This document shows positions 8,050-48,273 of a stretch of DNA of 51,428 nucleotides, in pieces (within the stretch, counting starts at the first letter, position 1; the number at the start of each line of letters is the position of its first letter). A program made the position numbers and the translations under genes. The notes below the pieces were generated by a model that was not told the DNA's origin, searched no databases, and saw nothing but the letters and a program-made list of their open reading frames with translations. The DNA is taken from positions 1 to 51,428 of the forward strand of contig NZ_CALEMX010000146.1 of assembly GCF_937910335.1 (NCBI RefSeq), given 5' to 3'. The DNA is from an uncultured Gimesia sp. (lineage in GTDB: Bacteria > Planctomycetota > Planctomycetia > Planctomycetales > Planctomycetaceae).

Positions 8050-11000
8050 CTATTTCTGGTTAGGTTGGTCCTTCAACCATTGCTTCAAAAAAGCCAACCG
8101 CTCCTTGCCGTATGCGTCCCCGGCGTCTGCTGCTTTTTGACACCATTTGAGTGCCTTATCATTCTCGCTATTGCGATCATAACAAAGTCCCAATTGTGTC
8201 ATTGCGTTGGCATCCTTCGCTTCGGCGCGTAAAATCCAATGAAACGGATGTGTGACTGGCCACCGCGGCGATGAGAAAGGACGCCCGTGTAATTTCGCTG
8301 TTGGAATATCTGCGGGCACAATATCAACCTTTTCTAACTTCAACCCCAAGCGGTTTTGAGCGTCTGCAATTTCTTGTTCTGTCGGCAATCTGTCTAAATA
8401 GTCGTTGTATCTCCAAGTGCGAATCGAATTGTCATCCGAACCCGATGCAATCGTCTTACCGTCGGCAGAGAACGCTACGCTGTTGACACCATCGGTATGC
8501 CCCTCCAGAACGGCTTTCTGTTTCCCCGTCTGCACATTCCACAAACGCACTGAGTCGTCGGACGCCCCAGAAACAATGGTCCTGCCATCGAGTGAGAATG
8601 CTACAGTAGTTACAAATTGTGTGTGTCCTGTTAAGACAGCCTTCTGTTTTCCGTTTTCTACATTTCGCAGCACAACGGTATAGTCAATCATGCCTAAAGC
8701 ACTCGTTTGGCCATCAGGTGAAAATGCAAGGAGATTATCGACAGTATACTTGTCCCAAATAATATCTTGCTTCTGAGTTCCGACATCCCACAACCGAACG
8801 GTCCCAAATTTAGATCTCGAAATAATCGACCGACCATCAGAAGAAAACTCCACATTTTCTACCGAACTCCGATGCTTTGCCAGGACAGCTTTCTGTGTTT
8901 TACTTTCAACATCCCACAAGCAGACTGTCTTGTCTCGTGATCCCGAAACGATTATCGTACTGTCTGGAGAAAATGCGACACTTTCCACAACATCCGTGTG
9001 TCCCTTCAATTCGGCTTTCTCTTTTCCAGTAGCCACATCCCAGAGCCGGACGGTCTTATCTCCTGCTCCCGAAACAATCGTTTTGCCATCGGGGGAGAAC
9101 GAAACGCTGAACACGCCTCCAGAATGTCCTTTCAATACGGCTTTCTGTTTTCCGGTGACTAGATCCCAAAGTCGGACGGTACTATCAATTGAACCAGAAA
9201 CAACGAATCGGCCATCGAGCGAAAACGCGACACAGTTCACATAGCTGCTATGACCCTCCAGAGTGGATTTCTGTTTTTCAAAACTGACATCCCACATCCG
9301 GATGGTCCCATCAGATGCCCCTGAAACAATCGTCTGCCCATCGAGGGAATACGACACAGCATATACGTGACTCAAATGGCCTGTCAGGACAGCCTTCTGC
9401 GTTTCGCTTGCAACATCCCATAAGCGGACGGTATTGTCTCTTGCTCCCGAAACGATTGTCTTTCCATCGGGAGAAAATGCGACACTTTCCACTTGACCTG
9501 TGTGCCCTTTCAATACCGTTTTCTGCTTTGCGCTACTTACATCCCATAGCCGAATCGTATTGTCGGATGCTCCTGAAACCACCTTGTGTCCATCGGGCGA
9601 AAACGACACACTTCCTACCGATCCGGTGTGTCCTTTCAATATGATTTTTTTGTTGAAACTCGATACGTCCAATATACAGACAGTACCATTACGTGCTCCG
9701 ACAACGATCGTCTTACTATCGGGAGAAAATGCAACGCCAAAGATATCTCCGTCATATCCCGCAAAAACTTGCTTTTGTTTTCCGCTTGCCACATCCCATA
9801 AACGCATGGTCTCTGGTTCTAATTCAAAATCAGCTGACTTAGCTCCCGAAACAATCGTCTTACCATCGGGCGAGAATGAAACGCTGAACACGCCTCCCGA
9901 ATGCCCTTTCAATACGGTTTTCTGTTTTCCAGTCGCCACGTTCCACAGCCGGACGGTTTGGTCTAAGGCTCCCGAAACAATCGTCAAACCATCGGGGGAA
10001 AAGGCAATGCTTCTGACATCATCGGTATGTCCTTTCAGGACCCGTATCTGTACTCCATAAATTACGCTCCATAAACGAATGGTATCGTCAGGCGCTCCCC
10101 AGGCAATCAACCTTCCATCAGGAGAAACCGCAACACTGTATGTCGACTTGCGAAAATCTATAACATTGATTGCTTGAAAAATAGTTGGAAAAATCGAGTG
10201 ACTCATTGTGAGGCCGACCATTTTCGCTCTTGTAGATTCTTCCGTTTCGGGATCAAGCTTTCTCAGTGACTGTAACGCATACAGATGGGCTGAGTTGTAT
10301 TCCTGTTGTTCCAAAGCCCTCTCGGCTTTTGAGGCAAAGACCACGCCAAGGTTGCTCTCTGCGATTGCCAATTGTTTCTGTGTGGCCTTCTCGGAAACGA
10401 TGACTTTTGCTTTTTCTCGTTCTACTTTGGCTTTCTCTAGTTCGACTTGTTTCGTTTTCTTTTGTGCAGTTAGTTCATTCTGTTTCGCAATACCACGCTG
10501 CTCCCAGGCGACTATTCCACTAACGATGGCGACGACAGCGAATATTACAATTGCAGTGAGCCATCGTCGTAACACCTTGGCTCTCCGGCGCTCTTTTTTC
10601 AGTTGATAAGCCTTGTCTCGCTGCGTCAAAGTTCTAAGTGGAACACCCATTACTCCCGCCAGTACCTTGTATAATCCATGGACCAACTCCTTTTGATACG
10701 CATTGACTTTCTCTGTGATCTCCTGGCTCGTGTGTTCGTTTAGGTTTTGAAGTGCTTCGCGATATGCCGCGGGAGTTGTCCATCCCTGTTGACCGCCGGG
10801 CATCAACCGAAAATCTGCAGCAATCGGCTCGGCATGTTTCGACTGATCGATTTCGCCCCGTGCATCAACGGGGTGACGCAAAGGAAGCGGGAGACATTCC
10901 TGCTCCGGTTTGAACCCTGCCTTGTGCTTACCGCTGTCCCAACTGGCATTGGGTTCTCCCTCAATCATCACCGATAAGATGCGATCAGACCTGCCTATCT

Positions 11001-11367
11001 TTTTGAAATAGGCGATCTCTGCACAGACATATTCGCTCGTTACCGATCTCGGAGAACAAATAACGATCAGATAAGATGATCGTTCCAGTGCAGAAATGAC
11101 CGACTTAGCCAGATCGGCATCTGCAGGCAATTCATCCTCATCCCGGAAGATGGGATACAATGTTTCGGGTATCTGAAAGCCCAGCTCGTTTTCAAAGCCA
11201 ACAAGGTCTTCTGGTACCTCATAGCTCTCGATGGATTGATGTAGCCAGGTCGCCCACTGTCGTCCATATTGCTGATTATCCAAGTGACGGTAACTGATAA
11301 AAGCCAGGTATTCTTTCTTCAAATTCTGCGCATGATAAGAGGATTGGCGTTTGCTGGAATCAGACAT
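8050..11367 (-). CDS. TIR domain - TM - double WD40 propeller - Sel1-like protein
   Basis: A 1105-aa protein. Residues about 18-135 form a TIR domain: AFISYRHLD at 22-30 is the box-1 type strand, and SPRSVTSEYVCAEIAYF at 105-121 contains Glu117 where TIR NADases carry the catalytic Glu. One membrane helix lies at about 269-288, followed by a charged Lys/Glu-rich coiled-coil-like segment (289-335). From about 408 to 1000 there are 14 WD40 repeats with the pattern VAFSPDG-x-IVSG-x-D-x-TVRLWDV and GH, enough for two seven-blade propellers. The C-terminus (about 1045-1090, AMTQLGLCYD and ALKWCQKAADAGD) resembles a Sel1/TPR unit. TIR plus WD40 proteins are common in planctomycetes and cyanobacteria as signalling or candidate defence proteins; the TM suggests a membrane-bound sensor-effector. 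The ATG has AAGG about 10 bases upstream. Blades 2-3 and 8-9 are nearly identical. Confidence 0.9.
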   Translation of the reverse strand: MSDSSKRQSSYHAQNLKKEYLAFISYRHLDNQQYGRQWATWLHQSIESYEVPEDLVGFENELGFQIPETLYPIFRDEDELPADADLAKSVISALERSSYLIVICSPRSVTSEYVCAEIAYFKKIGRSDRILSVMIEGEPNASWDSGKHKAGFKPEQECLPLPLRHPVDARGEIDQSKHAEPIAADFRLMPGGQQGWTTPAAYREALQNLNEHTSQEITEKVNAYQKELVHGLYKVLAGVMGVPLRTLTQRDKAYQLKKERRRAKVLRRWLTAIVIFAVVAIVSGIVAWEQRGIAKQNELTAQKKTKQVELEKAKVEREKAKVIVSEKATQKQLAIAESNLGVVFASKAERALEQQEYNSAHLYALQSLRKLDPETEESTRAKMVGLTMSHSIFPTIFQAINVIDFRKSTYSVAVSPDGRLIAWGAPDDTIRLWSVIYGVQIRVLKGHTDDVRSIAFSPDGLTIVSGALDQTVRLWNVATGKQKTVLKGHSGGVFSVSFSPDGKTIVSGAKSADFELEPETMRLWDVASGKQKQVFAGYDGDIFGVAFSPDSKTIVVGARNGTVCILDVSSFNKKIILKGHTGSVGSVSFSPDGHKVVSGASDNTIRLWDVSSAKQKTVLKGHTGQVESVAFSPDGKTIVSGARDNTVRLWDVASETQKAVLTGHLSHVYAVSYSLDGQTIVSGASDGTIRMWDVSFEKQKSTLEGHSSYVNCVAFSLDGRFVVSGSIDSTVRLWDLVTGKQKAVLKGHSGGVFSVSFSPDGKTIVSGAGDKTVRLWDVATGKEKAELKGHTDVVESVAFSPDSTIIVSGSRDKTVCLWDVESKTQKAVLAKHRSSVENVEFSSDGRSIISRSKFGTVRLWDVGTQKQDIIWDKYTVDNLLAFSPDGQTSALGMIDYTVVLRNVENGKQKAVLTGHTQFVTTVAFSLDGRTIVSGASDDSVRLWNVQTGKQKAVLEGHTDGVNSVAFSADGKTIASGSDDNSIRTWRYNDYLDRLPTEQEIADAQNRLGLKLEKVDIVPADIPTAKLHGRPFSSPRWPVTHPFHWILRAEAKDANAMTQLGLCYDRNSENDKALKWCQKAADAGDAYGKERLAFLKQWLKDQPNQK

Positions 11368-29707: not shown

Positions 29708-30124
29708 GAAGTATTTCTCGTGTAATTAATTTGGGAATAGTGATCCCGATGTTCTCCCGATTCTTGGAAGACGGCATTGAGTATGTATGGCAGTTGTTTC
29801 TTTTGAAAAACAGACTTTGATGATACGGAATTTTCAATGACAACATCTGTCTCAGCTTTTGTCTTAATCTTATTAAAATATTCGGGACAGCTTGAATGTT
29901 TTGACCAACATCATTCAAGTTGTATTCGTATTAATGGATAATCATAACGAAGTTGTAATAATTCAGCTATTTTGTGGGTGATTTTTTCTTTAGGGCAGGA
30001 AAAGTGCAGATAGGGCTTCTAAGATAATATGACACGCGGTCCGATGTAGATTTGAAATCCGTTTTTTTTTGGAATTTCGGGTGTTCGATTGACAATTTCT
30101 GTAAACGATTCGAGAGAAAAAAAA
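29708..30124. other. 417-bp divergent AT-rich intergenic region
   Basis: It separates the metallophosphoesterase gene (-) from the TPR gene (+). It is AT-rich and contains a short ATTCTTGG...ATTTTCAATGACAAC stretch and a run of nine T at 30062-30070. No gene, terminator or clear operator is seen. Confidence 0.5.
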
Positions 30125-31486
30125 GTGGCGTTTAGAGCACGAAAAAAGCTCATCCTCTCTCTTGTTATCTTGCTGGTGGCGATATTGAGTTCTCCTGTCT
30201 GGGGGCGAGGATTGTGGATCAGCCTCTTTCAGGATCGCGCTGTACAGAATTTACTGGAACGCAATCCTGAAAATGCCTTGGAATGGCTCGCGTATGCGCA
30301 GGCTCTGGATGATCAGAATCCAACAACGAAGATCCTGTTTGCGCGTGCGTATAGAAAATCGCGTGATGTCGAACAGGCTTATAGCGTGTTAATGAAATAT
30401 TATGAATTGGCCGGTTCTACAGAAGAATATCTACAAGAACAATGGCTGTTAAAAGCACAAATCGGCGACAATGCCGATTTGCAAAAACACTTGAGTGAAT
30501 TGCTCATCAAAGATCAGGCAGATATGCAGGATATTTGTGAGACTTATGTTAACAGTTGTATCTTGAATTATCAGTTTAACGACGCACTCAAAATTCTGGA
30601 GCTCTGGGAAGCCGATTTTCCGGAAGATCCACTTCCCAATTTTATGCGAGGGAAAATTTATGAGCATGAAAGGGCGTTGCAAGATGCAATCAAAGAGTTT
30701 CAGAAAACCCTGGATAAAGACCGCACATATGCCCCCGCCGCGTATAGTCTCGCACGCATTCAGTTAACGCTCAAAAAAACAGAAGCCGCAATGAAATATT
30801 ATCAAACGACGCTGGCGAATACAAAATTTAAATCACCCGCCAAAGTAGGGTTGGCGCGTTGTTACAGACTGTTAAACCAAAATCAGAAGGCAAAACAACT
30901 TCTATTAGAGGTTCTGGAAAAAGACGTCAAAGAATTACAAAAAGAATATCAGGTTATGGGGGAGCCGAAGTTTTTAGCAAATTCCGCCGCTCATCTGGAA
31001 ATGGGAACTCTGGAACTCACTGCAAAAAATTATGAGGCCGCTTTGAAATGGCTGGAACCGGCTGCCAAAGCCAACCCCAGAGATCTGGGAATTAAAAATG
31101 CGCTGGCCATTGTTTATAGCCGTCTAGGGAGAAAGCAGGAGGCGAAAGAACTCAGTCAGACGATTAAAGAAACCAATAATGCTTTGGCGGAGATCCAGGA
31201 CTTGTTAGACCAAATGCGGAAAGAACCACCCAATCCAGAGTTGCGATTTCAGATAGGTAAAGCTTACTTGAAGTATATTTCAGAAGAACAGGGAATTGTC
31301 TGGCTGAATAGTGTCTTGCGATCTCTGCCCCACCATAGGGGTACACATATAGAATTGGCTCGATATTACGAACAGAATCGAGCCCGCGGGGAGAGTTTTG
31401 AACGACTGGCAAAAATCCATCGCGAAAAAGCAAATGCATTAACAAAAAAAACTGAGAATTCACCTGTAAAATCAGATCAGAAATAG
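30125..31486 (+). CDS. TPR-repeat membrane-anchored protein
   Basis: A 453-aa protein from the GTG at 30125, which has GAGAG about 9 bases upstream; the frame also reaches a TTG at 30089. One N-terminal signal anchor (residues about 10-25, ILSLVILLVAILSSPVWG). The rest is helical with repeated TPR-like units: ALEWLAYAQALDDQNPT, AIKEFQKTLDKDRTYAPAAYSLA, AMKYYQTTLANTKFKSPAKVGLA, and ALKWLEPAAKANPRDLGIKNALA. The products of TPR genes normally mediate protein-protein contacts. The gene is followed after 20 bases by a VCBS/ASPIC lipoprotein gene, so the pair is almost certainly one operon and the proteins may interact. Confidence 0.85.
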   Translation: MAFRARKKLILSLVILLVAILSSPVWGRGLWISLFQDRAVQNLLERNPENALEWLAYAQALDDQNPTTKILFARAYRKSRDVEQAYSVLMKYYELAGSTEEYLQEQWLLKAQIGDNADLQKHLSELLIKDQADMQDICETYVNSCILNYQFNDALKILELWEADFPEDPLPNFMRGKIYEHERALQDAIKEFQKTLDKDRTYAPAAYSLARIQLTLKKTEAAMKYYQTTLANTKFKSPAKVGLARCYRLLNQNQKAKQLLLEVLEKDVKELQKEYQVMGEPKFLANSAAHLEMGTLELTAKNYEAALKWLEPAAKANPRDLGIKNALAIVYSRLGRKQEAKELSQTIKETNNALAEIQDLLDQMRKEPPNPELRFQIGKAYLKYISEEQGIVWLNSVLRSLPHHRGTHIELARYYEQNRARGESFERLAKIHREKANALTKKTENSPVKSDQK

Positions 31487-31506
31487 AATCCCCACCGGAA
31501 ACGGAC

Positions 31507-33279
31507 ATGATAAAATTAAGCAACGGTATGACAGACTTCAACAAATGGATATCGCATTGGAATTCCCAGGCCCCGCTGATATTTGCTTTGGGCCTGTGTT
31601 TCCTTGTTGTTGGATGTACTTCGGACAAAGCCGATGAGCTGGACAGACTAACAACAGAATCGAATGAAAAGTTGATTCAGGAACATTCCGAAACGAGCCT
31701 GCGCCCCGAATTTGTCGATGTCTGGCCTGAACAAAATTTAAATTTTACTTACCACAATGGTCAGGACGCGGGTGAATTAGCGATTCTCGAAACGCTGGGC
31801 GGTGGTACTGCGGTTTTAGACTACGATCGAGATGGACTTCTCGATCTCTTTTATACCGGCGGTGGTAGCTTTGAAAATAAAACGACCAAAGGCGCTCCCT
31901 CCATTTTGTTACGCCACACAGGAGACTTCCATTTTCTTGACAAAACGAGTGCAGCAAATATGGATCTGGCCGACTTTTATAGTAATGGATGTTCGGTGGG
32001 AGATTATGACAACGATGGCTTTCAGGATTTGATTGTAACCGGTTACGGAGGTTCCATACTGTGGAAGAATCTAGGGGATGGCACATTTGAAGAAACGTCC
32101 ATCGCCGCCGGCTTGCGAGATTGTTATTGGGGTTCCAGTGCTGCCTGGGGGGATATTAATGGGGATGGTTTACTGGATCTTTATTTGACTCAATATACAG
32201 ACTGGTCTTTTCAGAATCATCCTGAATGTCAATTAACACCGGGTCGTCCCGATGTCTGTTCGCCGCATTCTTTTAAAGGCGTAGGAGACCTTCTGTTTTT
32301 CAACCGGGGTGATGGTACGTTTTATGACGCGACGAAAACAGCGGGCCTGGTTCCGGAAGGGAAAGGGCTCGGCGTGATTCTCGCTGATCTCGATAATGAT
32401 ACGGACCTGGATGCATATGTCTGCAACGATACCGTCGAAAACTTTTTATACCTGAATGATGGAAAGGGCAAATTCGAGGAAGTTGGTTTGATCAATGGTG
32501 CGGCCGTCGATGATCGGGCAACGCCCAACGGAAGCATGGGCGTAGATATTATGGATTATAATCATGATGGCTTGCCAGACTTATGGGTTGCCAACTATGA
32601 AAAAGAAGCCTTCGCTTTATATCGCAATGATGGAGATGCCCAGTTTTTGTATGTCAGTAATGATACCGGAGTGACTTCCATTGGAGCGTTGTTTGTCGGA
32701 TTTGGAACAGCGTGTGCCGATTTTGACTGGGATGGAGATGAAGACATCGTTGTGGCAAATGGACACGTCGCTTATTTCTCTACGAATTCTCCGTTCAGAC
32801 AAGAACCACTTTATCTCGAGAATCGGAAAGGACGCTTTGCTCAGCTTGAGTATTCCGATTCGTCTTACTTCGGACAGAGTCATACAGGCCGCGGTTTAGC
32901 GCTGGCTGATTTCAATGAAGATGGAAATCTCGATATCGCCATCTCAAATTTTAGCGATCCACCAGGAATTCTCAAAAATACATCTGACACAAAAGGGAAG
33001 TGGATCTCCGTGCGGTTAATCGGAACGCGCAGTAATCGGGATGCAATTGGCGCGCGACTGATTCTACATACTTCAGCCGGTGACCAGGTCCGGCAGATCA
33101 AAGGGGGAGGCAGTTATCTCTCTTCAAGTGACATACGTGTTCATTGGGGAATTCGCGCTGATGTAATCATAAGGGGCATTAGTATTTACTGGCCAAGCGG
33201 TGTTCAGCAGGAAGTGAAGACCCTTCAACCGAATACGTCAAATCTGATACTGGAACCTAACACAAATCCAGAATCCTAA
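31507..33279 (+). CDS. CRTAC1-like VCBS/FG-GAP and ASPIC/UnbV lipoprotein
   Basis: A 590-aa protein with a lipoprotein signal (LIFALGLCFLVVGC, lipidated Cys at residue 38). Six or more FG-GAP/VCBS loops follow: DYDRDGLLDLF, DYDNDGFQDLI, DINGDGLLDLY, DLDNDTDLDAYV, DYNHDGLPDLW, DFDWDGDEDIV and DFNEDGNLDIA. The C-terminus is an ASPIC/UnbV domain (GARLILHTSAGDQVRQIKGGGSYLSSSDIRVHWGI and ISIYWPSGVQQEV). The mammalian relative is the cartilage acidic protein CRTAC1; the bacterial function is unknown. The ATG has GGAAACGG upstream. It is the second gene of the TPR/VCBS pair. Confidence 0.9.
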   Translation: MIKLSNGMTDFNKWISHWNSQAPLIFALGLCFLVVGCTSDKADELDRLTTESNEKLIQEHSETSLRPEFVDVWPEQNLNFTYHNGQDAGELAILETLGGGTAVLDYDRDGLLDLFYTGGGSFENKTTKGAPSILLRHTGDFHFLDKTSAANMDLADFYSNGCSVGDYDNDGFQDLIVTGYGGSILWKNLGDGTFEETSIAAGLRDCYWGSSAAWGDINGDGLLDLYLTQYTDWSFQNHPECQLTPGRPDVCSPHSFKGVGDLLFFNRGDGTFYDATKTAGLVPEGKGLGVILADLDNDTDLDAYVCNDTVENFLYLNDGKGKFEEVGLINGAAVDDRATPNGSMGVDIMDYNHDGLPDLWVANYEKEAFALYRNDGDAQFLYVSNDTGVTSIGALFVGFGTACADFDWDGDEDIVVANGHVAYFSTNSPFRQEPLYLENRKGRFAQLEYSDSSYFGQSHTGRGLALADFNEDGNLDIAISNFSDPPGILKNTSDTKGKWISVRLIGTRSNRDAIGARLILHTSAGDQVRQIKGGGSYLSSSDIRVHWGIRADVIIRGISIYWPSGVQQEVKTLQPNTSNLILEPNTNPES

Positions 33280-39750: not shown

Positions 39751-40941
39751 TTATCTTAAGAAAAAGAACCGTTGTGCACTTTCAACCGTTTTTGGGTCTG
39801 CTTTACGCAATTGGGAAAGATGGCGTTTTGCCTTTTCTGCAGTAACCGCATCAGAGCCAATTCCTTTTTTGTTCTTGCCTTTGGAAGCGACCATCAGATA
39901 ACGCACGATGGCCCGCTTGGTAGCTCGGTTGTCGTAAGCCTCTTCGCCGTAAAGATTCATCAGGCGGTCCACCACACTCCAGTCTTCCCAGCGCGCGAGG
40001 TTCGTGATCACTCTGTCGGCCAATACCGGGCGATTTAATAAAAGTCGCATCGATTGACGCATTCGTTCTTTGCTGATCTGGCTCTCTTTATAAGTCCAGA
40101 TGAAACTCAGTGCCTCCATGGCGGCATACGTTTCACTAAACTCAACATCTTTGGAGACGAATTTGCTCTGATCAATTTGATCCAGTCCAGCGGCTCCCGT
40201 CAGCATCAGGTATCCCGAAATCAAACCACCAATGCCCATCCTGATTTGTTTCCCAGGCTCCTTGATCTTCTTTTCCATAAACGCAATGTCAGATTCCTGA
40301 CCACAAAGACCCAATAGCAAACCGTACAGTCCCAGTCGAGGCACGGGTGTCTTTGAACTGATGAGCCATTTTCGAAATTTTTCCCGAGGCAGCTCATCGG
40401 CAAGCAACGCGATCTCGTCGAAAGGAGCATTCGCGAATTCAGCAAAGGCATCCGTGGCTATCTTCTGGTCCGGGTGTTCCAGAAACTTCAGGAAATAGCG
40501 TAAACGGTCAGTCGTTTTTTCCTCAAGTGCAGGCGCGTGTGTCATGTAGTGGAAGCACGTTTCGCTGATTTCAATCGGTGGGTCCCAGATCATGCTGGTC
40601 TCTCTGGTGCCCAGTAACAGAAACAGGGCTCCTTTTTTCCCAACGCGATGTCGATTGAAGAAAACGGAATCGCCGACTTTCAATTTGCTTTTGTCTGTTT
40701 GATGGACAATCTCTTTGACTTCAAAGATCGTTTTGCCCGACTTTTTGAAGGTACCTTCTTCCGCGGAAACCCATGTCGCCAGCACAGCGACTTCGGCCTG
40801 TGAAAGCTTTTCAGTCAAAGGCGTCGAAGGACCCGGGCAGAAAGGGCACGCTTCTGCCTCAGAGATTTGTGCGATGAACAACAGACCGCAAATCAGTCCT
40901 GTGAGATAACGGTTTGCAACAAGCGTGTTTCGAACAATCAT
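39751..40941 (-). CDS. CPFC-motif exported protein, paralog 2
   Basis: A 396-aa protein from the ATG at 40941, with AAGGA about 8 bases upstream; a TTG at 40959 is less likely. Signal peptide or anchor (YLTGLICGLLFIAQISEA) followed at once by ACPFC at residues about 29-33. After that comes a beta-rich domain (EVAVLATWVSAEEGTFKKSG, KLKVGDSVFFNRHR, GALFLLLGTRE), then helical repeats (about 130-396) with PRLGLYGLLLGLCGQESDIAFM and GKNKKGIGSDAVTAEKAKRHL. I know no named family. It is a gapless co-linear paralog of the 396-aa gene just upstream, the products matching over more than half of positions by eye. The CPFC pair suggests thiol or metal chemistry. It is the last gene of the cluster. Confidence 0.78.
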   Translation of the reverse strand: MIVRNTLVANRYLTGLICGLLFIAQISEAEACPFCPGPSTPLTEKLSQAEVAVLATWVSAEEGTFKKSGKTIFEVKEIVHQTDKSKLKVGDSVFFNRHRVGKKGALFLLLGTRETSMIWDPPIEISETCFHYMTHAPALEEKTTDRLRYFLKFLEHPDQKIATDAFAEFANAPFDEIALLADELPREKFRKWLISSKTPVPRLGLYGLLLGLCGQESDIAFMEKKIKEPGKQIRMGIGGLISGYLMLTGAAGLDQIDQSKFVSKDVEFSETYAAMEALSFIWTYKESQISKERMRQSMRLLLNRPVLADRVITNLARWEDWSVVDRLMNLYGEEAYDNRATKRAIVRYLMVASKGKNKKGIGSDAVTAEKAKRHLSQLRKADPKTVESAQRFFFLR

Positions 40942-41026
40942 TGCCGATCCTTCGGTCAATTGAGTGTGGATTTATGAAAATAAATTCTGTACTTCGTTCC
41001 CATCCGATGGGGTAATTGTCGGCTCA

Positions 41027-42217
41027 TTATTTAAAGAAAAAGAAACGTTCTGCACTTTTGACGGTTTTCGGATCTTCTTTGCGCAACTTATCGAGTAATG
41101 CTTTTGCTTTTTCAGTCGTGGCTGCATCGGGGCCGATTCCTTTTTTGTTCTTGCCTTTGGAAGCGACCAGCAGATAACGGACAATGGCCCGTTTGATAGA
41201 CGGGATGTCGTAATCTCCCGTGCCATACATTTTCATCAGACGATCCTGAACACTCCAGTCATTCCAGCGGGCGAGGTCAGCCACAACCAGGTCGGTCAGT
41301 TCGGGGCGGTCCAGTAATAACTGCATCGATTTTCTCAAACGTTCTTTGCTGATGCGCTCATCGCCATAAGTCCACATGAAACGCAACGCTTGCATGGCAG
41401 CATACGTTTCGCTGAAGGCGACATTTTTTGGAATGAATTTTGTCTTGTCAATTTTATCCAACCCTTCTGCGCCGGTCAGTAACAGGTATCCTGAGATCAC
41501 GCCATCAATGCCCAGTCGGAACTCTTTTGTCGGTTCATTGATCTTTTTTTCCATAAACGCGACATCAGATTCCTGACCACACAGGCCCAGCAAAAGACCA
41601 TATAAACCCAGGCGAGTCACCGGCGTGTCTGGGTCGACAATCCATTTTCGAAGTTTTTCGCGCGGCAGATCCTTGGCTAAGGGAGTAATGTCTTCATAGG
41701 GAGCATTTGCGAATTCGGCATAGGCATCGTTCGAGACCATCTGGTCCGGGTACTCCAGGAACTTCAAAAAGTAACGCAAGCGTTTTGTTGTTTTCTCTTC
41801 CGGAGCGGGCGCCTGAGAAATGTAATGGAAGCTCGTTTCGGTAACTTCAATGGGATCTCCCCAGTCGATGCTGGTCCCTTTGGTGCCGAGCAGCAAAAAC
41901 AGATTTCCCTTTTTCCCGGGACGATGGCGGTTGATGGTAATCTGATCGCCGACTTTCAATTTGTCTTTGTCTGATTGGCGGACAATCTCTTTGACTTCAA
42001 AGACCGTCTTCCCCGCTTTTTCGAGCGTCCCCTTTTCAGCTTCCGACCATTGCACAAGTACAGCAACATCAGACTGCGAGAGCTGTTCGGTTAAGGTCAA
42101 CGAAGGGGCAGAACAGAATGGACAAGCTGTGACAAAAGGCAGTTGCGCCATCACAAGCAGACCGCAGATCAGTCCCAGAAAAAGGCGATTGTTAATGTAT
42201 CTTTTTAGACCGTTCAT
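41027..42217 (-). CDS. CPFC-motif exported protein, paralog 1
   Basis: A 396-aa protein from the ATG at 42217, chosen over the ATG at 42241 because ATGAGG lies about 9 bases upstream and the signal sequence then begins normally. The hydrophobic leader LFLGLICGLLVMAQLPFV ends at TACPFC. The domain plan is the same as in its neighbour: a beta-rich part (SQSDVAVLVQWSEAEKGTLEKAG, KLKVGDQITINRHRP, NLFLLLGTKG), then helical repeats with TRLGLYGLLLGLCGQESDVAFM. Identical length, no gaps and strongly conserved central motifs show a tandem duplication. It lies 76 bases downstream of the DUF3299-like lipoprotein gene, in the same direction. Function unknown. Confidence 0.78.
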   Translation of the reverse strand: MNGLKRYINNRLFLGLICGLLVMAQLPFVTACPFCSAPSLTLTEQLSQSDVAVLVQWSEAEKGTLEKAGKTVFEVKEIVRQSDKDKLKVGDQITINRHRPGKKGNLFLLLGTKGTSIDWGDPIEVTETSFHYISQAPAPEEKTTKRLRYFLKFLEYPDQMVSNDAYAEFANAPYEDITPLAKDLPREKLRKWIVDPDTPVTRLGLYGLLLGLCGQESDVAFMEKKINEPTKEFRLGIDGVISGYLLLTGAEGLDKIDKTKFIPKNVAFSETYAAMQALRFMWTYGDERISKERLRKSMQLLLDRPELTDLVVADLARWNDWSVQDRLMKMYGTGDYDIPSIKRAIVRYLLVASKGKNKKGIGPDAATTEKAKALLDKLRKEDPKTVKSAERFFFFK

Positions 42218-42293
42218 TTGTCGAACCTCATGGCGATTCATATCTGTTTTGAAAATACGAAATAGGTAATTATCAGTTTAAAACCTTATGGCA

Positions 42294-43271
42294 TTATTTG
42301 TCGATCACGATGGCGTCTTCGATGATGTAAATGGATTCTAATTCGTCTCCGATCGTTTCGACTTTGATGTGAAAGACGCCGACCACATCAAAGGGACGAT
42401 TGAGAATATAGTCTGACGTAACTCCATCCCGCATGACAACGGGAAACAGGTCATAAATTTTCGGGTTTTTCCCAAAGCAGCAGATCTGATTATCTCGGGC
42501 CAGATAAAAAGCTTCAATTCCCGTCTGCTGAAAAGGGGGATACATGAATCCTCTGATCCGAATCCGCTTACCATCCAGATCTTTGAGCCATTGGGGCATT
42601 AATTCCGGTGCATTGGGTGTGACCGGTTCCATATTCATGACTTTCAGCAAGTCAATATCATCGTAGGAAACCCGGAGCACATTTCCCGGAGACGTTTTGC
42701 TGAAGGCGTGATCCTTGATGAGTATTTTGACTTCGCGCGGTTTGCTGTTCTTCAGTTCTTTTTCTTCCTCTGCAGTCAACGCGCGTAGCTTAGGATCGGG
42801 TTTGCGCGCGACCAGAGCCACGACAACATCGCCGGACTCTTTTTCAGGTTGCTGTGTCTTTGATGCGGATATTGTTTTGGCTGGAGTCAAGTCTGTTGCC
42901 GTTAAAGGTAATTTCTCTGTGTCAGGCCGGAGTGTTGAATCTGTCAGCGTTTTCGCTACTGCTTTTGTTTTTTCCGGTTGCTGATCTTGTTTCGCAACAG
43001 ATGATTTCGAATCAGTGTCAACAGATACTGCAACCGTTTTCGGATCGTTCTGGTCGTTTTTATCGATCTTCTCGCTGAACTGGCGGTACTCTGTCGGTTC
43101 CGATGAAGAACAGCCGACTCCGAAGACAGGAAGACTGACTAACGTCAGCAACAGCAAAAAAAGAATTGTCTGGCGGGTGGGATAAAGGTGGGCCTGCACG
43201 TGATCAAACTCCTGATGATCGGGTGGTTGCACCAACTTCTTTACAAAGTTGATAATGGCCCAGACTGTCAT
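42294..43271 (-). CDS. DUF3299-like lipoprotein with CCFG motif
   Basis: A 325-aa protein. Hydrophobic segment TILFLLLLTLVSLPVFGVGC with a lipobox-like Cys at about residue 54, then a low-complexity Lys/Thr/Ser/Glu-rich linker of about 120 residues. The C-terminal domain (about 205-325) has LDGKRIRIRGFMYPPFQQTGIEAFYLARDNQICCFGKNPKIYDLF and LNRPFDVVGVFHI, resembling DUF3299 proteins, where the typical metal/thiol motif differs. Here the CC pair replaces the usual ACIH-type motif. The same CCFG core occurs in the neighbouring gene. It is probably outer-membrane or inner-membrane anchored. The gap to the 237-aa gene upstream is 67 bases. Confidence 0.72.
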   Translation of the reverse strand: MTVWAIINFVKKLVQPPDHQEFDHVQAHLYPTRQTILFLLLLTLVSLPVFGVGCSSSEPTEYRQFSEKIDKNDQNDPKTVAVSVDTDSKSSVAKQDQQPEKTKAVAKTLTDSTLRPDTEKLPLTATDLTPAKTISASKTQQPEKESGDVVVALVARKPDPKLRALTAEEEKELKNSKPREVKILIKDHAFSKTSPGNVLRVSYDDIDLLKVMNMEPVTPNAPELMPQWLKDLDGKRIRIRGFMYPPFQQTGIEAFYLARDNQICCFGKNPKIYDLFPVVMRDGVTSDYILNRPFDVVGVFHIKVETIGDELESIYIIEDAIVIDK

Positions 43272-43338
43272 TCAATCTGAGCCAATCGGTAAATAAATTT
43301 CTAAATCGTCTTGCTCTCTCTGTCGATGGGCACATCAA

Positions 43339-44052
43339 TCAATAGGCGGTCCGTGCCTGCTCAAAGTTTGTTCCCTTTAATTGATAAACGGGTTTTAGTT
43401 CGCCTGCGGTGGTAGGAGCTTCCGCTTGAAATTCCCCAGACACTGATACCAGGCCTGCGTAAAAATTAGCAATCTTATCACCTTGCATCTCGACCAGGAT
43501 CATATCCTTAGCGTCAGGTTGTCCACCAAAGCAGCATTGGCCATTGTCTTTGACCAGAATAAAACTTTTCAAATTTTTTGTTTGTCGGGTGGGATACATG
43601 TAACCTTTGATGAAAATGTTTTGCTTATCCCAACTCATCACGTCAGGATTCACTCTGCTGACACCATCTTTTTCGACAAAATCCTTGGCCGAAATATCAC
43701 TGCTAAAGTTGAGCCGATGGTAACCTTCGGGAACTTCATGTGCATAGACAAAAGACTGATAGGAAATACCGGTGATCAGGAAAAACGTAGAAAGTACGAT
43801 CGCCGCGAGCGCCACTGTTTTTCCTCCCAGTTCTCCAGCAGATCGTTTGATGCTGAAGATACTGAAGAGCGAGACAATGATACCGAAAACGGCAATTCCC
43901 AACCCGATAATTCCGAATAACGCAATAAACGAAAGCAACCCCAGAGCCAGACCAACGACGGCGGTAGGGGGCACGGGTTTGTAAGAAAACTCGTCCTGGA
44001 GATCGACGGCGTTTTGATACGATTGATTGGATCCATCAAGAACTTGCGACAT
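43339..44052 (-). CDS. DUF4190-like membrane plus CCFG DUF3299-like protein
   Basis: A 237-aa protein. The N-terminal part (about 30-100) has two or three membrane segments of DUF4190-like type (AVVGLALGLLSFIALFGIIGLGIAV and ALAAIVLSTFFLITG). The C-terminal soluble part (about 130-237) contains IFIKGYMYPTRQTKNLKSFILVKDNGQCCFGGQPDAKD, closely matching the CCFG core of the DUF3299-like lipoprotein encoded next. The soluble half would face the extracytoplasmic side. Function is unknown; the two proteins likely work in the same system. The start codon ATG is followed downstream by the second CCFG gene after 67 bases, so they are co-transcribed. Confidence 0.72.
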   Translation of the reverse strand: MSQVLDGSNQSYQNAVDLQDEFSYKPVPPTAVVGLALGLLSFIALFGIIGLGIAVFGIIVSLFSIFSIKRSAGELGGKTVALAAIVLSTFFLITGISYQSFVYAHEVPEGYHRLNFSSDISAKDFVEKDGVSRVNPDVMSWDKQNIFIKGYMYPTRQTKNLKSFILVKDNGQCCFGGQPDAKDMILVEMQGDKIANFYAGLVSVSGEFQAEAPTTAGELKPVYQLKGTNFEQARTAY

Positions 44053-44600
44053 GTTGCAAGGCCTTTCAATTATTCAGCAAGAATCAGGAATAAAGAGAAA
44101 TACTATAAATGATCGTCGCACACTTACGAGGTACATTCCCCGACCTTCGCAGTGAACCACTTTGAATACTGGTATCATAACATGCCCAAGGGCTCGAAGC
44201 ACCCCTGAATTTGCACAGAAAACCGGAGAAATCATCTAAGACCGGGCAGAAATCAGGGTTTACCGACCTATCCCGAAAAGTCAACCAATGCTCCTTTACA
44301 GGAAACGACTTACATACCCCAGGCAATACAATATATACGCTGCAGCGTCGTTTTTCGTTGAATTATTATGAAACTTAAAAATAGGCATTGCCCGTTTCAT
44401 ACGAATGTCAGCTTCAATAAAACATATTCGATACAACGTCGATAGATAAGATGTGAATAACTAAGCACTTATAGGTTGTTTGCAAGTCTATCAAACAAAA
44501 ATCGTGAGTTCTGTTAAATAGTTCACTAAAGCCTTGTTACTGATTCGAATATGCCAACGACGTCTGGCGAAAGACGTCTGATCGTGCGTTTGATGAATAA
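44053..44600. other. 548-bp intergenic region between the CCFG genes and ABC permease
   Basis: It should hold the promoter of the CCFG/CPFC genes, since the ABC permease lies upstream on the same strand. A short frame here (44084-44326) has no support. A GACGTC-palindrome hairpin (44559-44578) lies 22 bases past the permease stop; it lacks a T-run, so termination there is uncertain. No gene is seen. Confidence 0.5.
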
Positions 44601-45947
44601 TCAATCACTCAATGTGCTGGCGACATCGGTGCGGTAGGCGGTCATGGCCGGGATGAATCCGACCAGCGAAGCCAGCACAACCAGAACCGGCAGCAGAACC
44701 AGTTCGACGGAACTGAACGCAAAGGGGTTAATCAACAGTCCGCTGCGGGCCTCAATAATGGGGGAAGCAACAAAGACCAGACCATGCCCCAGAACAATTC
44801 CCAGTAAACCACCACCCAGACAGAGCAGTACCGATTCGGAGAGAATAATGGTGAAGACTGCAGTGCGGCCAGCTCCCAGAGCGCGCATGATGGCGATTTC
44901 TTTTTTGCGGTCGGACATCGAATTATAAATGCTGACAAAAATACTCACGCCGGAAACAATAATAATCAGAGACGTCAACACAATCAGCATCGTGCGCACA
45001 TTACCCACAATGTTTGTCATCAGCCAGGTGATCTGTTGAATGGGATTGACGGCTTGAGCCTGATTGCCCTCTTTCAATTGCGATTGGAACTTGATCGTGG
45101 CAAAGCCTCGTAAGCGATCACCTTTCATCTGAACCAGAATCGCGGTGACTTCTTTCTGAGCATCTGGTACTGCATGAGCATGACCGTGGCCGCTGTGATC
45201 ATGATGATCGTGGCTCGCGTTTTCTTTCAGGAGCGCTTTCAGCTTTTCCTCATCCACTTTCTCACCAAAGAATGCCGCTTCCCGGCGGATTGCTTCTTCC
45301 AGTGGTTTTTCATGGCCGGAAACCTGGTAAAACCCACGCAGATTGACGAATACCGTTCGATCATTGGGAGTTCCCGTGGGCGCCAAGATCCCCACGATTT
45401 TAAATTTTTCATCATGCACGTGCCCGCTTTCTGCAGATCCATGAATCAGTTGGAATTCATCACCCATCTTCCAGTTGTTCTGTTTTGCGACCGCAGAGCC
45501 AATCACCGAATCCCAGGTAGATGGCAAAAATTTACCCTCGCTGTTGATCCGAAAATGGCGACCGGGAATGTATTCCAGCGCAAAATAGCGTGGAATGGTA
45601 CCGACAATCGGAAAGCCTCCTTTTTGAGTGACATCACCTATGGCAAAGGGAATCGCTTCTTCAATACGGGGGTCATTCTTCAATTCGGTGTAGTAACGAT
45701 AAGGCAGGTTTTCAATCGGCGCTCCGACACGAAAAACCGTATTCAATACCAGTTGTAGGGGACTGCCTTTCGGACCAACAATCAAGTCATAACCGCTGGC
45801 CGTCTGATTAAACATGCGGTCAATTACGCCATTGATCACAAGCACTGAGATCATCAGAGTGACACCCAGGGCAACACTCAATGCCGTCAACAGAGAGGCG
45901 ACACGACGTTGTCGGATACTTTTCCAGGCGATAGTCAGAGTATTCAT
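44601..45947 (-). CDS. ABC transporter permease (FtsX/MacB-like) with His-rich loop
   Basis: A 448-aa protein with the FtsX/MacB arrangement: one N-terminal membrane helix (about 18-40), a large extracytoplasmic domain (about 41-315), then three C-terminal helices (about 315-340, 365-390, 410-435). The large domain contains the family GPKGSPLQLVLNTVFR and VVGT-type segments. A His-rich insert HDHHDHSGHGHAHA (residues 246-259) has seven His in about 13 residues and would bind zinc or nickel. Unlike lipoprotein exporters LolC/E, such loops are typical of zinc-linked permeases. It works with the ATPase encoded 63 bases upstream on the same strand. Its role is inferred as extrusion or delivery of a substrate across the inner membrane, possibly under metal control. 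Confidence 0.85.
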   Translation of the reverse strand: MNTLTIAWKSIRQRRVASLLTALSVALGVTLMISVLVINGVIDRMFNQTASGYDLIVGPKGSPLQLVLNTVFRVGAPIENLPYRYYTELKNDPRIEEAIPFAIGDVTQKGGFPIVGTIPRYFALEYIPGRHFRINSEGKFLPSTWDSVIGSAVAKQNNWKMGDEFQLIHGSAESGHVHDEKFKIVGILAPTGTPNDRTVFVNLRGFYQVSGHEKPLEEAIRREAAFFGEKVDEEKLKALLKENASHDHHDHSGHGHAHAVPDAQKEVTAILVQMKGDRLRGFATIKFQSQLKEGNQAQAVNPIQQITWLMTNIVGNVRTMLIVLTSLIIIVSGVSIFVSIYNSMSDRKKEIAIMRALGAGRTAVFTIILSESVLLCLGGGLLGIVLGHGLVFVASPIIEARSGLLINPFAFSSVELVLLPVLVVLASLVGFIPAMTAYRTDVASTLSD

Positions 45948-46010
45948 AATGGGCTGTTACTTTTGTTCGCTGAATAAAAAGATGAGGACATCAATCAATA
46001 ATCATGAGAA

Positions 46011-46685
46011 CTATACTGGAGCGTGAACTTTGTTGAATTCCGTCAGAGTTTCCACACGGTCAAACTGGTTGGCCACTTCCTGAGAGTGCGTCACCAGCAG
46101 CATCGCAATTTGATTCTGGGCACAGGCTTCGCGCAACAGCTTCAGGATCGTATCCTGATTCGCAAGATCGACATTCGCCGTCGGTTCATCCGCCAGTAAT
46201 AATTTAGGTTGATTCGCTAGAGCCCGGGCAACCGCCACGCGCTGTTGCTCACCAACGGACATCTGTTTGGGATGGTGATGCAACCGGCGTTCCAGACCCA
46301 CCAGCGCCAGAAGTTCTTTCGCGCGGTCACGGTTCGGCTTTTTGCGAGAAAAACTCATTCCCAGCAATACGTTTTCCAACGCCGAAAAAGCAGGTAACAA
46401 GTTGAATGTTTGAAAGACGAAGCCAATTCGCTCGGCACGAAACCGGTCACGGACTACCTCTGCCATCGAAGCAATTTCGGTCCCCGCGATTGTCACCTTT
46501 CCACTATCGGCGGCGGTGATGCCAGAGATGACATTCAGCAGAGTCGATTTTCCCGAACCGCTCTCGCCGATCAAAGCAACCTGTTCGTTCTCTTTCAATT
46601 CAAACCGCGCGATATCCAGGATGGGCAGAACGGAGCCATTCGGCTCACGGTAACTCTTTTTAACGTTTTCCAGCAGCAGGGACAT
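46011..46685 (-). CDS. ABC transporter ATP-binding protein (LolD/MacB-like)
   Basis: A 224-aa protein with Walker A GESGSGKST at residues 40-48, a Q-loop VFQTFNLLPA, the signature MSVGEQQRVAVARAL (142-156; canonical LSGGQ is here MSVGE), Walker B KLLLADEPTANVD and the switch His in LLVTH at residue 200. The usual length of LolD/MacB/YbbA ATPases is 220-240. It is the first gene of the cluster and presumably powers the permease encoded 63 bases downstream. The upstream gap (313 bp, divergent from an L,D-transpeptidase gene) contains an 18-bp perfect palindrome. Confidence 0.9.
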   Translation of the reverse strand: MSLLLENVKKSYREPNGSVLPILDIARFELKENEQVALIGESGSGKSTLLNVISGITAADSGKVTIAGTEIASMAEVVRDRFRAERIGFVFQTFNLLPAFSALENVLLGMSFSRKKPNRDRAKELLALVGLERRLHHHPKQMSVGEQQRVAVARALANQPKLLLADEPTANVDLANQDTILKLLREACAQNQIAMLLVTHSQEVANQFDRVETLTEFNKVHAPV

Positions 46686-46998
46686 ACTGACCTCGTTCAG
46701 GGAATCTGAGGAAAGGAACCAAATTTCTGAGAACAGACCTCGGCAATTGTTATTGCAAATGTAATGCAGTAAGCAGGTGGTTGCCTAGGGGTGTTTTGAC
46801 AAATCTTTGCAATTATTCCCGATCAGGGAGACTTGCCGGCAAGTCTTAAATAATTATCGATAGGTGACTTACGACTAAGAAAGTCCAACCCGGCTCTCTC
46901 TGGATCGCAGTAGGCTGATTTACGTCAATTTGCTATAGTTCCGCCTCTCTGATTTTAACCAATGTGTGTAGGAATTGTGAATCAAGGATGATAGCAAG
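46686..46998. other. 313-bp divergent intergenic region
   Basis: It separates the ABC ATPase gene (-) from the L,D-transpeptidase gene (+) and should hold both promoters. It contains the palindrome at 46829-46846 and, toward the ATPase gene, a TTGTTATTGCAAATGTAATG stretch that loosely resembles a Fur/Zur-type box; the latter is a weak impression. Confidence 0.5.
46829..46846. promoter_or_regulatory. 18-bp perfect palindrome, candidate operator
   Basis: AGACTTGCCGGCAAGTCT is a perfect 18-bp palindrome with no spacer, in the intergenic region shared by two divergent genes. No regulator can be assigned from the sequence. Confidence 0.45.
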
Positions 46999-48273
46999 AT
47001 GCGAAGTCGTTACCAGCGCCGATTAATGACTCCCTTTCGTTTCGTAATGATCGTGGGACTGGGAATTATAGGGACTGCTGCATGGAAATTTGATATGCTC
47101 CCATTTCACATGGGCAGTGCACCCACCGGCTCTTTGGAAGAGGCCTCATCCGATGATGCTTCTCTGTCCGGCAAAGGTCAGTCTGCTTCTGGATATGTGG
47201 AACCCGTTTTGTCCGAGGAGACAATCATCGCACAGTCGGAACCACCGGCTGAAGAATTACTGGAAGGCAATGATAATCAACGCGCCTATCAGAGCAGAGA
47301 TATCGAAGTACCTCGAATTTACAAGCGGACATTGACCGGGGAAGTCGTAGAGGCTCCTACCAAAGTCGACTCTCCTGTAAACGAAGCCCTCGAACCAAAA
47401 CGATTCAATGGATCTGCCGAGCCTTTGCGTAAAGAAGACAAATCACTCGGTTCTCAACAGGTCGCGGCAAAAAATGTTCCGAGGAATTTGATCCCACCAG
47501 AAGGAATAAAACGTGCGAGCCCGCGCGTCATCAAGTCTGCCGAGAATGCCAGTTTTAAAGAGGAAGTGGCTGGAACGCAGGCGAAGAATAACACTCCTGA
47601 TTTAATCGCCATCGACCAGTTAATTCAACAGGGGAAAATTCTGGATGCTCACAAGCAGCTTTCAAAAATTTATTGGAAACAGCCTCAATTATATCCGGTC
47701 ATTAAATCGCGCATCGAAGAGACAGCACGCATCATTTATTTTACCCCGCAACCACATTTTATGACGCCACATGAAATCGAGCCCGGCGATCAACTGAGAA
47801 AAGTAGCGACACATTATAAAATTACCTGGGAGTATCTGGCGAAACTCAATCAGATTGACCCTAAAAAAATTCGGCCCGGCCAGAAATTGAAAGTCATTAA
47901 GGGACCATTTTTTGCCTTTGTGGATTTGAGCGAATTCACGCTGACTATCCATTCGCACGGATATTTCGTCAAACGCTACGCGATCGGAATTGGTAAAGAT
48001 CACTCCACGCCAACCGGGAAATTTCAAGTCAAAGATAAACTCGTTGATCCGATTTATTACGGTCAGGATGGTGTGATTGCCAACGATGATCCGGAAAATC
48101 CATTGGGAGAACGCTGGATTGATATCGGCGACAGCTATGGCATTCACGGCACGATCGATCCGGCTTCGATCGGTAAAGCAGAATCAAAAGGGTGTGTGCG
48201 AATGCACAATGAAGATGTTGCCGAAGTCTACGACCTGCTGGGTCTGGACTCAGAAGTGGTCATTCGGCCCTGA
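46999..48273 (+). CDS. LysM + L,D-transpeptidase (YkuD) protein
   Basis: A 424-aa protein with one N-terminal membrane segment (about residues 14-32), a long disordered linker (about 35-200, rich in Glu, Ser, Pro), then a LysM-like segment at about 254-296 (HEIEPGDQLRKVATHYKITWEYLAKLNQI). The YkuD L,D-transpeptidase domain follows (about 305-424). The catalytic motif HGT...SKGCVRMHNED has His383 and Cys399. The family cross-links or trims peptidoglycan or attaches proteins to it. Planctomycetes do make peptidoglycan, so a cell-wall role is plausible. The ATG has AAGGATG about 8 bases upstream. Confidence 0.9.
   Translation: MRSRYQRRLMTPFRFVMIVGLGIIGTAAWKFDMLPFHMGSAPTGSLEEASSDDASLSGKGQSASGYVEPVLSEETIIAQSEPPAEELLEGNDNQRAYQSRDIEVPRIYKRTLTGEVVEAPTKVDSPVNEALEPKRFNGSAEPLRKEDKSLGSQQVAAKNVPRNLIPPEGIKRASPRVIKSAENASFKEEVAGTQAKNNTPDLIAIDQLIQQGKILDAHKQLSKIYWKQPQLYPVIKSRIEETARIIYFTPQPHFMTPHEIEPGDQLRKVATHYKITWEYLAKLNQIDPKKIRPGQKLKVIKGPFFAFVDLSEFTLTIHSHGYFVKRYAIGIGKDHSTPTGKFQVKDKLVDPIYYGQDGVIANDDPENPLGERWIDIGDSYGIHGTIDPASIGKAESKGCVRMHNEDVAEVYDLLGLDSEVVIRP

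Follow-up and report, generated by a model that had tools for sequence, protein, structure and literature searches.

What does a bacterial cell do with an ATP-binding cassette (ABC) transporter pair whose gene neighbors encode secreted proteins of no assigned family? This question is raised by six minus-strand genes, encoding the proteins P0001 to P0006, that lie in a row at positions 39751-46685 of a 51,428-nucleotide stretch (hereafter the window; contig NZ_CALEMX010000146.1, assembly GCF_937910335.1) from an uncultured planctomycete of the genus Gimesia. All six open reading frames were found where a preliminary description, made from the sequence alone, had placed them. The favored answer, to which a probability of about 55% is given, is a planctomycete version of the Zrg envelope system: MacB-like, driven by ATP, serving zinc or cobalt, and fitted with a different periplasmic partner. 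Sequence comparison and structure modeling support this reading by pointing to a permease and an ATPase of the ZrgB/ZrgC kind, two OB-fold DUF3299 proteins resembling ZrgE/PA4066, and a pair of secreted proteins that carry a CPFC motif. The mode of action of ZrgBC is disputed between zinc import and metallophore export; a lineage in which the ABC-DUF3299 core persists with another partner helps to separate machine from adaptor, and the cluster offers proteins from a non-pathogen for testing the ZrgBC question. It also provides the first context for the CPFC family. Among open-licence papers judged by title, none concerned this cluster and none a planctomycete DUF3299 protein.

The permease P0002 (44601-45947, minus strand; ZrgB-like) contains the Pfam domains FtsX and MacB_PCD, as its early label of an FtsX/MacB-like permease implied, and scores 147-161 bits to four zrg-type permeases, 146 to a Thermus permease, 42 to MacB, 21 to LolE and 18 to LolC. 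Its reported seven-His loop could be located in full at residues 246-258 (45174-45212, minus strand), with histidines at 246, 248, 249, 251, 254, 256 and 258. At least five His within 20 residues are found in 14 of 21 permeases of CPFC loci from named genomes and in 4 of 28 permease loci (L089-L116) from outside the CPFC-linked clade described below. The ATPase P0001 (46011-46685, minus strand; ZrgC-like), a nucleotide-binding subunit of LolD/MacB type, matches Pfam ABC_tran at 4.7e-35. It had been called LolD-like, which holds insofar as LolD is its best NCBIfam model; at 202.1 bits, however, it stays below the cut-off of 307.75, and it does not discriminate between LolD of Escherichia coli (164 bits) and ZrgC (134-161 bits).

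This affinity to LolD, the lipoprotein-like appearance of some DUF3299 homologs (judged by eye) and an L,D-transpeptidase gene that stands divergently beside the cluster would suit a lipoprotein-handling or envelope ABC system of the LolCDE/MacB-like kind, in which no metal takes part and the DUF3299 lipoprotein and the CPFC proteins are moved as structural parts of the envelope. Such a system is considered unlikely, as the permease shows only 18-21 bits to LolC/LolE and the partner set matches that of zrg operons. Although superfamily and domain make-up are common to LolCDE, MacAB and the cluster, the latter scores far under their cut-offs: P0002 reaches 41.4 of the 362.45 bits of the NCBIfam LolCE model, and against 966 bits for the MacB equivalog the ATPase attains 152.6 and the permease 33.7. 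A family scan of the six genes found no MacA-type adaptor.

The Zrg-type reading draws on the genomic company of related permeases. With P0002 as the query, 108 plasmid records were matched, and in four of five permease neighborhoods opened outside the phylum a DUF3299 gene is adjacent, accompanied in three by ZrgA (DUF2796). Plasmids of Pseudomonas aeruginosa, Sulfitobacter and Phaeobacter carry the order DUF2796(ZrgA)-ATPase-permease-DUF3299, that of Phaeobacter with a Fur-family gene directly upstream. In Catenovulum, where ZrgA is not annotated, a divergent DUF3299 gene adjoins the ABC pair, and in Thermus neither DUF3299 nor ZrgA is annotated. The suggested likeness to Vibrio zrg clusters is thus borne out by the operons in which relatives of P0002 sit, as well as by the DUF3299 profile match given below. 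Within a phylum-wide sample of 149 genomes, the permease occurs in 58 at 1e-20, and permease and DUF3299 lie within 6 kb of each other in 39 of these genomes (40 of 64 permease places), for which rough arithmetic gives a chance expectation well under one. The DUF3299 list, with one entry per permease gene, left out matches of the P0003 query to its DUF4190 part only (G010, G037, G055, G099, G127, G121:574138) and, at several loci, the second DUF3299 gene; such omissions cannot inflate the number of permeases that have DUF3299 as a neighbor.

Both CCFG-containing proteins of the cluster are DUF3299 proteins, as judged by Pfam and profile evidence and, for P0004, by a structure model. P0003 (43339-44052, minus strand) has N-terminal membrane segments, its hydrophobic segments lying within residues 26-102, and bears CCFG at residues 173-176; it matches Pfam DUF3299 at 22.7 bits, just above the cut-off of 22. 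Of its first designation as a DUF4190-CCFG protein, the motif stands, while the DUF4190 match is sub-threshold (16 versus 35 bits; one homolog passes at 36.0). The second protein, P0004 (42294-43271, minus strand; a possible lipoprotein with CCFG at residues 264-267), was the only one initially likened to DUF3299, a proposal upheld for P0004 and too narrow for the pair. It has no Pfam match and a weak NCBIfam match to TIGR03943 (8e-6), far under the cut-off. A profile of 34 planctomycete CCFG-type proteins found a single PDB chain, 4hsp (2.2e-10), which is the crystal structure of PA4066 (PMC8561739). In profile comparisons, the planctomycete DUF3299 profile gave 97% against five DUF3299 proteins of the plasmid neighborhoods, and the set led by the P0004 domain gave 93% against zrg DUF3299. 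The model of this domain, with a predicted local distance difference test score (pLDDT) of 91.3, retrieved 4hsp as the only Foldseek match at E≤0.001 (8.9e-5), and the same structure gave the best Z score (9.6; root-mean-square deviation 3.1; 117 aligned residues; next entry 7.6). Pfam DUF3299 is touched by 27 of the 34 profile members at E≤1, and the planctomycete CCFG occupies the position of ACxHxPPPP in other DUF3299 proteins. In the same alignment, TIGR03943 is touched by seven of the 34 members (NCBIfam, E≤0.1) and DUF1980_C by four (Pfam, E≤1); from these sequence matches, a distant kinship of DUF3299 to TIGR03943/DUF1980_C is possible.

The two CPFC proteins, P0005 (41027-42241, minus strand) and its paralog P0006 (39751-40959, minus strand; 65% identical in alignment), obtained no family assignment in Pfam or NCBIfam scans, in keeping with the earlier remark that they appear undescribed. 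Their motif cysteines (C40/C43 in P0005, C38/C41 in P0006) follow a signal-peptide-like N-terminal stretch, although only that of P0005 (residues 19-43), a probable signal peptide, passed the hydrophobicity threshold; the true start of P0006 may be the ATG at 40941. The P0005 model (mean pLDDT 93.3) places strands at residues 59-127 and helices from 135 to 402, the motif itself being poorly modeled (pLDDT below 50 at 38-40 and 43-45). Foldseek returned no match to this model at E≤0.001, with ERAP1 and armadillo repeats in its top positions. NTR domains appeared at ranks 41, 47 and 48 (meteorin 7tlh, meteorin-like 7tlw and TIMP-1 2j0t); together with the C-terminal domain of C3b (6xzu) they had a probability of 1.00, E values of 0.027-0.039 and a TMt of 0.45-0.50. 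The N-terminal domain is therefore, according to the model, likely NTR-like; sequence profiles of it found no NTR protein. The helical part of P0005 (residues 136-404) aligns with HEAT/ARM-type proteins at VIA-align Z scores of up to 12.6, as is usual among helical repeats. Five of 14 CPFC homologs are touched by Pfam HEAT_2 (best 3.2e-7), P0005 and P0006 not being among them.

The motif residues C40, P41 and C43 are invariant in 63 aligned sequences, which had been preselected for the motif. Among all closed copies longer than 360 residues, CPxC is retained by 73 of the 76 first copies and by 39 of the 48 later ones. In 114 CPxC copies, the residue at position -1 from the motif is Ala in 82, and that at -3 is A, V, L or T in 103; because of these preferences, the sequences fit a predicted cleavage by signal peptidase I directly before the motif Cys. 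TIMPs begin with Cys, so that the modeled N-terminal domain and the probable mature N-terminal Cys of the CPFC proteins both resemble the TIMP/netrin (NTR) group; unlike that group, no sequence similarity was found, and the only cysteines of the P0005 domain are the motif pair. Some extra copies may be decaying: the second CPFC copy in four genomes of the genus (G190, G210, G229 and G289) has one TAA stop in the matched stretch, and the middle copy of another locus (L117) reads CPFG.

The near-constant motif of the first copies, weak glutaredoxin matches at the motif (E 0.2-1.3), TIMP-1 among the structural matches and 13 of 63 loci without a DUF3299 gene just upstream of CPFC would also be compatible with thiol-disulfide (CxxC redox) or inhibitor proteins, the latter binding metalloenzymes in a TIMP-like way, that are merely co-regulated with the ABC core. 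This account is rather improbable, in view of the frequent loss of the motif in later copies, of an NTR match that is structural only, and of CPFC genes adjoining the ABC core in eight families, which argues for a joint role. Assignment as a glutaredoxin or thioredoxin was rejected, the matches being confined to the motif; no thioredoxin-like fold was among the 50 structures listed by Foldseek or VIA-align, which by itself proves nothing. The idea of a thiol-type protein gives way to that of an NTR-type domain joined to a HEAT-like one, which does not look like a thiol enzyme of known kind.

How far the CPFC proteins belong with the ABC core can be judged from their distribution. Of the 198 genomes sampled from the class, 148 have a CPFC match at 1e-8, as do 10 of the 149 phylum-wide genomes at 1e-4. 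A scan of named genomes yielded 473 CPFC relatives and 79 retained loci, two of them from Gimesia and all bearing planctomycete names except one labeled 'bacterium' (L194). At 1e-40 the permease occurs in 94 of the class genomes, so that 84 contain both, 10 the permease only, 64 CPFC only and 40 neither; CPFC thus accompanies 84 of 94 permease genomes versus 64 of 104 others (Fisher p 7e-6, for genomes that are related and not independent). In at least 29 of the 94, no more than 6.5 kb separates CPFC from the permease; these genomes are spread, among the matches listed, over eight families (f1, f2, f83, f86, f87, f88, f89 and f91); most second copies are omitted from the linkage list, so its counts are lower bounds. 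In Planctomycetaceae (f1), 51 listed genomes carry both genes and at least 16 have them linked. Of 63 named loci, 50 have one or more DUF3299 genes immediately upstream of CPFC; among the 50 loci with enough DNA, the permease is upstream in 16. Neighbors of six CPFC loci without DUF3299, viewed by eye and without a family search, had no common theme. The two modules thus tend to co-occur, often apart from each other, and CPFC occurs alone too. The co-conservation check suggested by the preliminary description accordingly gave a mixed outcome, favorable for co-occurrence and for part of the adjacency, unfavorable for the many unlinked or permease-less genomes.

Gene order is identical in the two other fetched genomes of the genus (L077 and L078) and in many named loci; given this recurrence and the linkage in eight families, the cluster is not a chance neighborhood. 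In a permease tree, 12 CPFC-linked permeases form a single clade of 17 sequences with P0002 and those of G024, G087, G105 and G137 (support 100/99). From the named loci, 9 of 21 permeases were included in the tree, along with L077-L079; MacB, LolC/E, Thermus and L092 sit on long branches in it.

The metal link, regulation and direction of the cluster are inferred by analogy with its studied relatives. Zrg-type operons of Vibrio and P. aeruginosa are reported to be Zur-regulated and to aid growth at low zinc (PMC9817125, PMC9820375, PMC11481552), and the zrg genes of Vibrio parahaemolyticus to be induced 76- to 206-fold in low zinc (PMC9817125). The low-zinc role in Vibrio cholerae and P. aeruginosa is described for strains lacking other zinc uptake: V. 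cholerae without znuA requires ZrgA to grow under zinc limitation (PMC9820375), and in P. aeruginosa minus two other zinc systems, loss of PA4065 leads to less low-zinc growth and more cobalt (PMC11481552). The P. aeruginosa mutant phenotypes (PMC11481552) and the MacB architecture would also agree with export of a metallophore or metal complex, in which the CPFC and DUF3299 proteins serve as periplasmic adaptors; PA4064-PA4065 has been proposed as a pyochelin-cobalt exporter. For the planctomycete cluster this is distinctly unlikely, as neither the six genes nor the scanned neighbors include a metallophore synthesis, membrane-fusion or outer-membrane channel family, and the study of V. cholerae favors import (PMC9820375). 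Because published work on the relatives argues for import and for export, no transport direction is assigned.

Under the preferred Zrg-type reading, ATP hydrolysis would induce a conformational change in the periplasmic domain of the permease, as in other mechanotransmitters of the MacB type, and this movement would be relayed to the DUF3299 and CPFC proteins. Both kinds of protein would act on a transition metal (zinc, or cobalt in its stead) or a metal complex on the outer side of the inner membrane, and the place of ZrgA would be taken by the CPFC proteins and, often, by the His loop of the permease.

Zinc genes of the genus were also considered. Each of three genomes has a pair of ZnuA-type genes, along with two or three genes of the Fur family. 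A 22-bp palindrome, present with one mismatch in the window's genome, lies upstream of the stronger ZnuA-type gene (G000:C546:15649-15670), with counterparts in G048 and G069 (L220-L222); in a search of the three genomes it recurs as two neighboring weaker sites upstream of a DUF1559-like gene (pilin-like, by eye). No shared Zur-type site was found at the cluster in the genus.

Several observations weigh against the Zrg-type reading. The palindrome of the ZnuA-type gene is absent at the cluster, although this is a weak test, since the ZnuA transporter is possibly a manganese system. The Thermus permease scores about as high as the zrg ones while having no annotated DUF3299 neighbor, and in the tree a long branch holds the zrg permeases, which are not firmly placed. 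In the phylum sample, 19 of the 58 permease genomes have no DUF3299 match within 6 kb. Among CPFC genomes, 64 of 148 contain no permease match at 1e-40; no permease is nearby in 34 of 50 named loci, and in 35 of the 51 Planctomycetaceae, some on short contigs, the permease lies more than 6.5 kb from CPFC among the matches listed. Finally, ZrgA (PF10986) exceeds the Pfam cut-off in none of the 198 class genomes, which gave eight weak sub-threshold matches, and it was not found in the window's genome at E≤0.001.

Because ZrgA was tested for and is absent, the locus is not filed as ZrgABCDE; its ABC pair and DUF3299 proteins form a Zrg-like core, joined here by a partner family that is new to it. 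Like ZrgABCDE of Vibrio and PA4063-PA4066 of P. aeruginosa, the cluster has a separate ABC ATPase and MacB-like permease with DUF3299 alongside, and both kinds of system include a His-rich stretch, located in ZrgA in Zrg and often in the permease in planctomycetes. The cluster differs in lacking ZrgA and adding CPFC proteins, in having two DUF3299 proteins, one with N-terminal membrane segments, in which CCFG replaces ACxHxPPPP, and in the 548-bp gap that separates its ABC pair from the rest. Other planctomycete loci (L093-L095, L099, L102-L105, L112 and L114) share the ABC pair and DUF3299 but have a His-rich lipoprotein instead of CPFC. This lipoprotein-like family is present in 14 of 40 fetched loci (10 of which were used to build its profile), a fraction that is not a census, as the loci were chosen from permease, DUF3299 and CPFC matches; it is in none of the 79 CPFC loci. 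Two of the ten His-rich lipoproteins touch the Pfam ZrgA model, one at 28.0 bits versus 27.4, and the match shown covers the signal-plus-His stretch. Kinship to ZrgA was rejected at an hhalign probability of 0.8% against three ZrgA proteins, and the lipoproteins are called analogs. It is a speculative and rather improbable extension that the Zrg ABC-DUF3299 core would be a general envelope engine with an exchangeable metal-binding partner. Proteobacteria would use ZrgA for this, some planctomycetes a His-rich lipoprotein, and Planctomycetaceae with their kin an NTR-HEAT CPFC protein whose mature N-terminal Cys would grip a metal or metalloprotein in the manner of TIMPs.

The intergenic gaps from P0001 to P0006 measure 63, 548, 67, 52 and 67 bp. 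Because of the 548-bp gap between the ABC pair and the remaining four genes, the cluster is probably transcribed as two predicted units, the ABC pair and DUF3299-DUF3299-CPFC-CPFC. An imperfect, genus-conserved palindrome lies upstream of the ATPase gene (46753-46769, minus strand). It belongs to a block conserved in all six aligned upstream regions (the window, L077, L078, L117, L118 and L121), which reads TTGCATAACATTTGCAA in five of the six and is located about 70 bp before the ATPase start in the window. Elsewhere in the three genomes the palindrome has scattered two-mismatch sites, one of them common to two genomes, and no clear regulon emerged; it is possibly an operator or part of a promoter.

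The gene divergent from the cluster (46999-48273, plus strand) encodes a LysM and L,D-transpeptidase (YkuD) protein, and L077 and L078 have an equally long 424-aa gene at the corresponding position. Farther away in the window, a minus-strand gene (8050-11367) encodes a 1105-aa protein with many WD40 repeats and an N-terminal region that is TIR-like by eye. Two plus-strand genes (1649-5353 and 30089-33279) encode FG-GAP proteins, one with UnbV_ASPIC, and TPR-like sequence is present in the first of them, below the cut-off, and, by eye, in the gene preceding the second.

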